From NCBI GenBank assembly GCA_002288455.1, contig NEUS01000001.1, positions 1-64,000 on the forward strand: 64,000 nucleotides of DNA, read 5' to 3'. The notes under the pieces are model-generated. The model was not told the DNA's origin. It did not search any database and worked only from the letters and a program-made list of their open reading frames with translations. Shown one piece after another: positions 61,376 through 64,000 of this stretch. Made by a program: the position numbers and the translations under genes. Source of the stretch: Opitutia bacterium Tous-C1TDCM. Lineage in GTDB: Bacteria; Verrucomicrobiota; Verrucomicrobiia; Opitutales; Opitutaceae. Position 1 is the first letter of the stretch; each line of letters opens with the position of its first letter.

Positions 61376-62389
61376 ATGAATCCGCTCCCTGTCCCGACCT
61401 TCGGTCTTGCCGCTGTCGCCGCCGCCCGCCGCCGTTTGGCGCACGGGCTCCGGCTCACGCCGTGCGCCCTCGCGCCCGCGCTGTCGGAGATTGCCGGGAT
61501 GGAAATCCGGCTGAAGCGCGACGACCTCCAGCGCACCGGCTCCTTCAAAGAACGCGGCGCCCGCCACGCCCTGCTTTGCCTCTCGCCCGAGGAACGCGCC
61601 CGCGGAGTCGTCGCCGCTTCCGCCGGCAACCACGCCCTCGGCCTTGCCTACCACGGCGCCCAGCTCGGCGTGAAGGTCACCGTCGTCGTCCCCGCCAACG
61701 CGCCCGCCGTGAAGCTCGCCCGTTGCCGCAGTCTCGGCGCGGAGGTCGTCGTGTCCGGCGCCACGTTCGCCGCCGCCGAAGCCGAGGCCGGCGCCCTCGT
61801 GGCCGCGCGCGGCGCCACGCTCGTCCATCCCTTCGACGACCTGCGGGTCATCGCCGGCCAGGGCACGCTCGGACTCGAGGTGTTGGAGCAAGCGCCTGAC
61901 CTCGACACGATCGTCGTGCCGGTCGGCGGCGGCGGCCTGATCGCCGGCGTGGCCACGGCGGTGAAGGCGTTGCGTCCGGACGTACGGGTCGTCGCCGTCG
62001 AGCCGGCCCATGCCGCGGGCTTTGTCTCCGCGTACTTGGCGGGCGGGCCCGCGCCTGCGGCCTTGGCGCCGACCTTGGCCGACGGCCTCGCCGTCGCGCG
62101 CATGGGCGCGAACACCTTTGCGCTGGCCGCGCCGCTGATCGACGACCTCGTGACCGTGACGGAGGAGGAACTCGCCCGCGCGGTCGCGCTGCTCGCCCGC
62201 CGTTGCGGTGCCGTGGTCGAAGGCGCCGGCGCCGCGGCCTTGGCGGCCGCCATCTCCGGCAAGGTGCGCGCCCGCTCCGCCGTGCTCGTGGTCAGCGGCC
62301 GCAACATCGACCCCGCCGCGCACCGCGCTGTGCTCGATGCCTGGTCCGATGCCGCCGCCGCGGCGCCATGTCTGGCCCGCGCCGCCTAA
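61376..62389 (+). CDS. ilvA: Threonine ammonia-lyase (threonine dehydratase), short form
   Basis: 337 residues, fold-type II PLP enzyme. The cofactor lysine is K58 in 'RTGSFKERGARHAL', the cofactor ring site is 'ASAGNHALGLAYHG', the phosphate-binding Gly loop is 'VPVGGGGLIAGVATAVK', and 'VVSGRNID' closes the site. It deaminates threonine to 2-oxobutanoate. It lacks the C-terminal ACT regulatory domain of biosynthetic IlvA (over 500 residues in E. coli), so allosteric inhibition by isoleucine is not expected. The isoleucine attenuator upstream would provide the control instead (inferred). A serine racemase or serine dehydratase side activity is possible. Confidence 0.88.
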   Translation: MNPLPVPTFGLAAVAAARRRLAHGLRLTPCALAPALSEIAGMEIRLKRDDLQRTGSFKERGARHALLCLSPEERARGVVAASAGNHALGLAYHGAQLGVKVTVVVPANAPAVKLARCRSLGAEVVVSGATFAAAEAEAGALVAARGATLVHPFDDLRVIAGQGTLGLEVLEQAPDLDTIVVPVGGGGLIAGVATAVKALRPDVRVVAVEPAHAAGFVSAYLAGGPAPAALAPTLADGLAVARMGANTFALAAPLIDDLVTVTEEELARAVALLARRCGAVVEGAGAAALAAAISGKVRARSAVLVVSGRNIDPAAHRAVLDAWSDAAAAAPCLARAA

Positions 62390-62424: not shown

Positions 62425-62487
62425 TCCCATAAGTCCCATAGGACCCATAGGACCCATAGGACCCATAGGACCCATAGGACCCATAAC
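62425..62487 (+). repeat. CCCATAGGA 9-bp tandem repeat, seven units
   Basis: Seven consecutive 9-nt units (TCCCATAAG, TCCCATAGG, four copies of ACCCATAGG, ACCCATAAC). It lies 35 nt after the ilvA stop codon. Confidence 0.9.
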
Positions 62488-62509: not shown

Positions 62510-62536
62510 GCAAAGTAACCCAATAGGTTACTTTGC
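62510..62536. other. Perfect stem-loop GCAAAGTAACC / GGTTACTTTGC
   Basis: 11-bp arms (62510-62520 and 62526-62536) with loop CAATA, AT-richer than the surroundings. A second inverted repeat GGCGCCGG/CCGGCGCC (about 62550-62581) with a T-rich loop follows. Both lie between ilvA and the next gene and may end the ilvA transcript or mark a small mobile repeat. Confidence 0.6.
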
Positions 62537-62604: not shown

Positions 62605-64000
62605 ATGGAACCACCCGCCCAGCCGCGCGACCCCCGCGACCCGCGTGAGCCGCGACGCGATTCGCGCGGGCAACCCGGTCCCCAAGGCGGACGCGAGGGC
62701 CGCGACGGCCGAGGTGGGCGCGATTTTCGACGGGGCGGGGGAGGCGGCGACTTTCGCGGCGGCCGCGGCCCGCAGGCCTCCCGCCAACCCATGCCGCTCG
62801 CCCAACCTGGGCCGCGCGCCCCGCAAAGTCCGGCCGCTGTGCGGCCCGCGCCGGTCTCCGCCGCGGTGGCGCAGGCGGGCGTACCGCACGGGGCGACGGA
62901 GCTCGGCTGGCTGCCCGACGTCGTCTGGGCCGGCGAGAAGTGGGAAAACGGGCTCGCGTTCTTCGCCGATGCGCAGGGTCGCATCACGCGGTTCTCTCGC
63001 GAACCGGCCGATCTCGCGCAGGCGCGACGGTTGGCCGGCCAGGCCGCGTTGCCCGGCCTGGTGAACGTCCACGCGCACGCGCTCCAGCGCGTCCTGCGCG
63101 GCCGGCTCGATGCGGCGGCGTCCGCCCGCGCGAGCGAGGCCTTGGCCGGCGGGGATATCTTCGACACGGCGCGGATGGTGTTTCTCGAACTGCTGCTGGG
63201 CGGCGTGACGGTCACGGGCGAGTTCCACACGTTGCTTCGGCAGCCCGACGGCACGCCGTGGCCGGAACCGAACTTCGCGGCGCGGGAAATCCTGCGCGCG
63301 GCCCACGACGTCGGCCTCCGCCTCGCGCTGTTTCCCGTGGCCCGCACGCGCGGCGACGCCGGCCGGCTCCGCGAGACCGCGGCCACGGCCGAGCAATTCG
63401 TGCGCGAGACGGAATTGCTGCGCGCGGCGGTCGAGCGCGACTATCCCGCCGACGAGGCGTGGCTCGGGCTCGGCGTGGCGGCGGTCGATGCGGTGACGCC
63501 CGACGAACTGAAGGCGCTCGTCACCTATGCGCGCACGCAACGCTTCCGCCTGCAGGTCCCGCTGCCGGCGGACACCGCTGCGACTTTCGGCGCCGGCCGT
63601 ACCGCGCTCGCTTGGCTCGCGGAGCAAGGCGCCGTCGACAAACGCTTCACCGCTGTCGTGAGCGGCGGGCTGGGCGAGGAGGATCTCAAGGTGTTGGCCG
63701 CGGCGCGCGCCGCGACCGCAGTGTGCCCCGGATCGTTGCCGGCGGGCACGGACCTGGCGGCGATCGCAAGATTGGCCGCCCACGGCGCAGGCCTCGCGCT
63801 CGGCACCGGCGGCAACCGCCGCTGCGACCTGCTCGGCGAGGCGCGGCACCTCCACGAAGCGCGGCCCGAGACGGCGCCGGCGGCGTGGTGGCAGGCGGCG
63901 ACGGTGACCGGCGCGCGCAGCCTCGGCGCCACGGGCGGGGCCCTCGAAGTGGGCCGGCCGGCGGATTTCTTCACCGTCAACCTTTTCGATCCCGCGCTCG
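62605..64000 (+). CDS. RGG-rich N-terminus fused to a degenerate HutF-like amidohydrolase (3' end outside window)
   Basis: Open from ATG 62605 to the window end (at least 465 residues). Residues about 1-95 are low-complexity and Arg/Gly/Pro-rich, including 'DGRGGRDFRRGGGGGDFRG', like eukaryotic RGG RNA-binding tails. From about 98 it follows the layout of formimidoylglutamate deiminase-type amidohydrolases: beta-sandwich, 'ALPGLVNVHAHALQRVLRG' with HxH (H156, H158), and 'GGVTVTGEFHTLLRQPDG'. The later metal and catalytic sites are replaced: 'LQVPLPAD' for HIHIAEQ, 'VVSGGLG' for VHATH, 'GTGGN' for GSDSH. It is probably not a metal hydrolase. The first ATG is uncertain; ATG 62791 would omit most of the RGG part. 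Confidence 0.75.
   Translation, partial: MEPPAQPRDPRDPREPRRDSRGQPGPQGGREGRDGRGGRDFRRGGGGGDFRGGRGPQASRQPMPLAQPGPRAPQSPAAVRPAPVSAAVAQAGVPHGATELGWLPDVVWAGEKWENGLAFFADAQGRITRFSREPADLAQARRLAGQAALPGLVNVHAHALQRVLRGRLDAAASARASEALAGGDIFDTARMVFLELLLGGVTVTGEFHTLLRQPDGTPWPEPNFAAREILRAAHDVGLRLALFPVARTRGDAGRLRETAATAEQFVRETELLRAAVERDYPADEAWLGLGVAAVDAVTPDELKALVTYARTQRFRLQVPLPADTAATFGAGRTALAWLAEQGAVDKRFTAVVSGGLGEEDLKVLAAARAATAVCPGSLPAGTDLAAIARLAAHGAGLALGTGGNRRCDLLGEARHLHEARPETAPAAWWQAATVTGARSLGATGGALEVGRPADFFTVNLFDPAL

Follow-up and report, generated by a model that had tools for sequence, protein, structure and literature searches.

Gene content at the end of the window

The window analysed here, 64,000 nucleotides from Opitutia bacterium Tous-C1TDCM (contig NEUS01000001.1, positions 1 to 64,000 of the forward strand), ends inside a gene whose predicted product joins a disordered Arg/Gly-rich N-terminal tail to an amidohydrolase barrel with a degenerate HutF active site (Table 1). 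The reading frame begins at an ATG at 62605, is open to the window end and reaches its stop codon at contig positions 64171-64173, giving a protein of 522 amino acids. This start codon is supported by a comparison with the sister species G007, in which the tail stays in frame, with in-frame indels only, whereas the DNA upstream does not.

Directly upstream, at 61376-62389, the window encodes a PLP-dependent threonine/serine dehydratase-like enzyme, a relative of which also lies upstream of L151, a family member in a single-contig genome of 5,957,605 bases. Between the dehydratase-like and pseudo-HutF genes is a tandem array, CCCATAGGA, of 6.7 copies (62426-62485), the minus strand of which contains a spurious MGPMGP ORF. 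A perfect inverted repeat, GTAACC-CAATA-GGTTAC, is located just downstream of the array (about 62515-62531), some 75 bases before the start codon.

Table 1. Features of the pseudo-HutF gene in the window; residues in parentheses after HutF use HutF numbering.
Feature	Position	Strand	Description and basis
Pseudo-HutF gene	62605..64000	+	Residues 1-465 of 522, the remainder lying beyond the window; supported by orthologues
Disordered N-terminal tail	62605..62904	+	Residues 1-100, R/G/P-rich, net charge +7; pLDDT, composition, dN/dS
RGG core of the tail	62686..62769	+	Residues 28-55, GGREGRDGRGGRDFRRGGGGGDFRGGRG; RGG/GGR excess over shuffles
Amidohydrolase barrel domain with degenerate HutF active site	62905..64000	+	Profiles, alignment, model
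HxH motif, H156, A157, H158 (HutF H56/H58)	63070..63078	+	Only metal/catalytic motif left in the window copy
Site of HutF HSLRAVTP (H206, R209)	63478..63498	+	Here ...AAVDAVTP, with A292 and D295; alignment
Site of HutF HIHIAEQ (H232, E235)	63550..63576	+	Here LQVPLPADT; alignment
Site of HutF VHATH (H269)	63649..63669	+	Here TAVVSGG; alignment
Site of HutF GSDS (D320)	63802..63813	+	Here GTGG; alignment

A HutF-like barrel with a degenerate active site

From about residue 101 onward the protein matches Pfam Amidohydro_1 at 65.6 bits, above the gathering score of 25. The HutF profiles recognise it with a best E value of 1.4e-52, yet their scores of 159 and 179 bits fall far below the curated cut-offs of 413 and 362. 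HutF 3MDU is the nearest solved structure by sequence (E 8e-22), the barrel is mostly confident in an AlphaFold2 model built from an alignment of 25 orthologues, and a Foldseek search with this model returned HutF again (E 1.3e-27), with 4rdv as the best match and 3mdu as the third. On the evidence of the profiles and the model, the fold is that of an amidohydrolase barrel, closest to HutF. A sequence-only reading of the window had recognised the HutF layout, a retained N-terminal HxH and the replacement of three other motifs, all of which the profiles and the alignment to 3MDU bear out; it had also called for structure prediction, which gave a mostly confident HutF-like barrel behind a disordered tail.

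In the window protein HxH stays (NVHAHALQ), while HIHIAEQ is replaced by LQVPLPADT, VHATH by VVSGGLG and GSDSH by GTGGN; HSLRAVTP reads AAVDAVTP, an alteration that had likewise been spotted from the letters and that holds. In HutF structures these residues serve as metal ligands, in acid/base catalysis and in substrate binding; the letters at these positions were checked. Of the presumed metal ligands (H56, H58, H232 and D320) and catalytic residues (E235 and H269), the window protein has H56 and H58 only (2/6), and of the presumed substrate residues (Q61, Y121, H206 and R209) it has only Q61. By comparison, the 20 nearest complete relatives, which come from Acidobacteriota, Citreicoccus and two Opitutaceae (G185 and G174) and were aligned to 3MDU, carry all ten of these residues, and no comparable tail is evident in them.

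The loss extends to a clade of 44 Opitutaceae sequences. None of the 44 has all six metal/catalytic residues together and none has Arg209; the number remaining is five in the L055-L064 type, two in the window protein and one or two in the L027-L033 branch. Even the second His of HxH is not a family trait, since the sister protein reads HSQ and other members have R, Y, C, I or L at this position. The canonical motifs are not restored by any frameshift, which the sequence-only reading had named as a finding that would count against it; frameshift or assembly error as the source of the lost motifs is ruled out, the loss being common to the whole clade and thus to 44 sequences from many assemblies. 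One further homologue (L091) also falls short in the residue count, but this is a canonical copy truncated where its contig ends, and four others (L138-L141) were left out as a different aminohydrolase with its own motifs.

Essential catalytic residues have therefore been lost from a gene that is itself conserved, and judged by sequence the family is very probably one of pseudoenzymes. Within it, the subclade L055-L064, L079 and L090 keeps five of the six residues, and this subclade could conceivably have residual or altered activity.

A single origin and a probable shift of the functional surface

In a tree built by a quick method, with support measured as SH-aLRT and no bootstrap, the 44 sequences form one clade (SH-aLRT 100) and there is a single change of state. 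The active site was thus lost by descent, in one event, from a HutF-like (formimidoylglutamate deiminase-like) ancestor. Since the loss of R209 is common to all members and the other losses are piecemeal, the residues suggest that deiminase function was the first to go and that the metal site drifted later. Within the genus, 26 of 27 genomes have the gene, and matches at E<=1e-30 occur in 15 of the family's 49 genera, a count that takes in a few canonical relatives and other aminohydrolases. Across seven clade pairs, including branches in which most of the residues have been lost, dN/dS is 0.06-0.13. There was no match to anti-phage defence families, and a search of plasmid records yielded no more than two hits, both weak and partial (identity <30%, query coverage 33%), of which one is annotated hutF.

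Within the clade, positions 206, 232, 235 and 236 lie in the 90th-97th percentile of variability (H206, H232 and E235 in the 92nd-97th), although they are invariant outside it. Other positions have become fixed: R315, K346 and W490 are present in 44/44 members, D283 and R313 in 43/44 and Q495 in 42/44, and in canonical relatives these letters are rare or absent. D283, R313, R315 and K346 sit just before strands beta-4, beta-5 and beta-6 in the AlphaFold2 model, which would place the new residues at the end of the barrel opposite the catalytic one, and we read this as a probable shift of the functional surface.

These patterns bear on two other explanations for the family. The members of the clade might still be enzymes, acting on another substrate through an altered active site in which the metal is arranged differently or is absent, as could be expected from the first His of HxH, present in nearly all members, from Asp320, present in most, and from the L055-L064 type, in which five of six residues persist with Gln at 232. 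However, the losses differ by branch, the pocket columns are among the most variable, the gained positions include no new conserved set of pocket residues and the window protein itself is left with only two of the six, all of which makes this explanation distinctly unlikely. Alternatively, the old pocket could bind a small molecule without catalysis and signal to a partner; the fold persists, as does the scaffold of the pocket, and both are modelled with confidence, but pocket residues that vary freely in the clade are a poor fit to one conserved ligand, and we consider a sensor of this kind more doubtful still.

Genomic neighbourhood

Canonical relatives, the Opitutaceae copies L133 and L136 included, are mostly encoded beside hutU and hutI and often hutH. 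No hut neighbours were present at the pseudoenzyme loci examined, and no HutI above cut-off was found in the eight pseudoenzyme-bearing genomes searched. Active-site loss together with the loss of hut context and pathway might be taken to indicate a decaying hutF remnant without function. Against this are the low dN/dS (0.06-0.13), the open frames in 44 sequences of many genera and the newly fixed residues; because selection is purifying and new residues have been fixed, we do not regard the gene as decaying, and a remnant is scarcely credible.

Instead of hut genes, a nucleotidyltransferase (sugar-1-phosphate) gene lies directly downstream on the same strand in 36/44 pseudoenzyme loci, as against none of the canonical loci. 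The gap is mostly about 30-220 bases, the other neighbours vary and the adjacency is missing at eight of the loci. The nearest solved relative of the nucleotidyltransferase is 3pnn, followed by glucose-1-phosphate uridylyltransferases, and in a number of genomes it is followed by a gene for a PIG-L deacetylase, for an N-acetylhexosamine 1-kinase-like (NahK-like) kinase, or for each of them. The nucleotidyltransferase also occurs across the order without the pseudoenzyme, and its pairing with PIG-L or the kinase is likewise seen in genomes that lack the pseudoenzyme; for this reason the amino-sugar nucleotide cluster is probably the older, with the pseudoenzyme a later addition to it. For the same reason, and given the eight unlinked loci, the adjacency may be inherited gene order; the neighbourhood link to the nucleotidyltransferase is a good lead, not proof.

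Elsewhere in the Opitutaceae, a HutF relative with canonical motifs (L137, G035:C2) is split over two frames, as a relic or through sequencing error. It has no hut neighbours in the stretch fetched, and the same genome has a nucleotidyltransferase-PIG-L pair elsewhere, without the pseudoenzyme.

The N-terminal tail

Residues 1-100 of the window protein include 17 R, 19 G and 18 P, and in the AlphaFold2 model (alignment of 25 orthologues) pLDDT is <50 over residues 1-96, one residue excepted. RGG or GGR occurs six times in the tail compared with 1.2 times in shuffles of the same tail, the fraction of shuffles as high being 0.0005. Between the window and sister proteins, the one species pair in which selection on the tail was measured, residues 1-78 differ by 6, 6 and 33 changes at codon positions 1, 2 and 3, with dN 0.088, dS 0.741 and a ratio of 0.12; the barrel domain of the same pair has dN 0.047, dS 0.391 and the same ratio of 0.12. 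Because changes concentrate at codon position 3 and indels are in frame, the window tail is translated, and it is under purifying selection. The suspicion that the tail is spurious, out-of-frame GC-rich DNA is excluded for the window and its sister by the same codon-position pattern and in-frame indels, and the Arg/Gly-rich N-terminus proposed from the sequence is, by composition, pLDDT and the dN/dS of this pair, a genuine part of the protein.

Its RGG character is not general. RGG/GGR lies above shuffle level in the window and sister proteins, the four further long tails examined show no such excess, and a disordered R/G-rich region with RGG repeats, of the kind that defines RGG proteins, is likewise found in these two and absent from several orthologues. 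Among members with a clear ATG, the N-terminal extension is between about 17 and 143 residues long. In early branches it comprises about 17-40 Pro/Ala-rich residues (about 25 in L030, L072, L046, L047 and L051), and orthologues that have no RGG tail (L030, L018, L019, L024, L025 and L072) each have a short extension of this length, about 17-40 amino acids. Expansions rich in Arg, Gly, Pro and Asp are found in the window branch and in the L009/L012/L014 group, and the L055-L064 group has an expansion of another style (RGPGPNRGPG). R/G-rich tail expansion therefore arose at least two times on the tree, and the RGG character is lineage-specific and late. The sequence-only reading had left it to orthologues to show whether the lost residues and the tail are conserved: the active-site loss is clade-wide, whereas the RGG tail is a late expansion in some branches. 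Tail-less orthologues, which it would have counted against itself, do exist in the sense of lacking RGG, but each has the extension described above, and the sister has kept its RGG tail.

An Arg-Asp or Arg-Glu pair near the start occurs in 16/29 members compared with 3.8 in shuffles, a comparison in which near relatives are not independent, and this pair is suggestive as a shared feature of the extension. In L009 (G024) the tail has undergone an extreme low-complexity expansion at the same position, with long Gly and SGSSGG runs. When the tail was sought elsewhere in six family genomes, this gene alone was recovered, in the window genome and in that of the sister, although low-complexity filtering may mask others.

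A C-terminal RGG/RDRD tail is also present on an RRM protein of the window genome (L165 / L159, G000:C17:4718-5841), encoded just upstream of a DEAD-box helicase, and the same layout is present in G007. Like the window protein it has an Arg/Gly-rich low-complexity tail with RDRD/RGG stretches; unlike it, the tail is C-terminal, attached to an RNA-recognition domain and glycine dominated with Phe. Multi-RGG tails were not found on the DEAD-box helicases with readable C-termini in the two genomes; one of these helicases carries a single RGG/GGR.

Might the pseudoenzyme then work as an RNA-binding or condensate factor through its RGG tail, unconnected to the sugar genes? Such a factor would suit the tail itself, which is basic, disordered, rich in RGG and maintained by purifying selection in both the window and sister species, and would suit the presence of the RGG/RDRD-tailed RRM protein in the window genome. 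Early-branch orthologues have no RG repeats, however, and the core function cannot rest on them; furthermore, the window tail has only two aromatic residues. An RNA-binding or condensate role for the tail is only an analogy, and as an account of the family we think it improbable.

Discussion

We propose that the window protein belongs to an Opitutaceae-specific family of pseudoenzymes that acts as a non-catalytic partner, the best explanation as a whole, to which we assign a probability of about 0.42. That the partners are most likely the adjoining sugar-nucleotide enzymes is a tentative proposal, held slightly less firmly. The family descends from a HutF-like ancestor; Arg209 has been lost clade-wide and the other metal and catalytic residues differently from branch to branch. 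The fold has been retained, and the unstructured extension has turned Arg/Gly/Pro-rich in several branches, the window's among them. The protein would work by binding or assembly with a partner and not by catalysis. Its constrained face would lie away from the old active site, at the opposite barrel end (Asp283, Arg313, Arg315, Lys346 and Arg347) and at the C-terminal Trp490 and Gln495. The likeliest partner would be the nucleotidyltransferase encoded directly downstream, in an amino-sugar nucleotide salvage cluster (PIG-L, NahK-like). Finally, the basic tail may tether the complex to a polyanion, whether nucleic acid or an acidic protein. The most specific version, in which a dead HutF was rebuilt at its far barrel end into a regulatory or assembly subunit of UDP-amino-sugar salvage, with the R/G tail recruiting nucleic acid or forming condensates, is unlikely to hold in full.

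HutF (3MDU/4RDV, TIGR02022) is the closest protein in sequence and fold and has the same domain layout, and in the tree the pseudoenzyme clade is nested in a set of HutF-like proteins, most of them encoded in hut operons. In contrast to HutF, the window family scores far below every HutF cut-off, has lost the active-site residues, has no hut neighbours and has gained an N-terminal extension. The CRMP/dihydropyrimidinase-like proteins of animals are amidohydrolase-fold pseudoenzymes that have been kept for binding and have disordered tails. These proteins are eukaryotic and dihydropyrimidinase-derived, with a C-terminal tail. Among bacteria, the dihydroorotase homologue pDHO is assigned to the amidohydrolase superfamily, and we know of no disordered R/G-rich tail on it. 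In P. aeruginosa, pDHO is an inactive dihydroorotase homologue that is required for aspartate transcarbamoylase activity (PMC7053772). Much as we propose for the window family, it is a bacterial, inactive amidohydrolase homologue and the assembly partner of a metabolic enzyme, but it derives from dihydroorotase and not HutF, and its partner is ATCase. The suggestion from the sequence that this is not a described bacterial protein type must accordingly be narrowed: bacterial amidohydrolase-fold pseudoenzymes are known (PMC7053772), and what is new here is the lineage and architecture only, not such pseudoenzymes as such. In the literature searched, outside of which most subscription papers lie, no description was found of a pseudoenzyme family that derives from HutF and has a disordered tail at its N-terminus.

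The clade represents a natural experiment in the conversion of an enzyme to a non-enzyme, with one origin and with intact relatives in the same bacterial family. It combines a graded loss of catalytic residues with new fixed residues elsewhere and with a tail that grew in some branches only. For the Opitutaceae there is also a practical consequence: a protein that carries the annotation amidohydrolase or HutF probably does not break down formiminoglutamate, and its active site should be checked before it is taken to do so.
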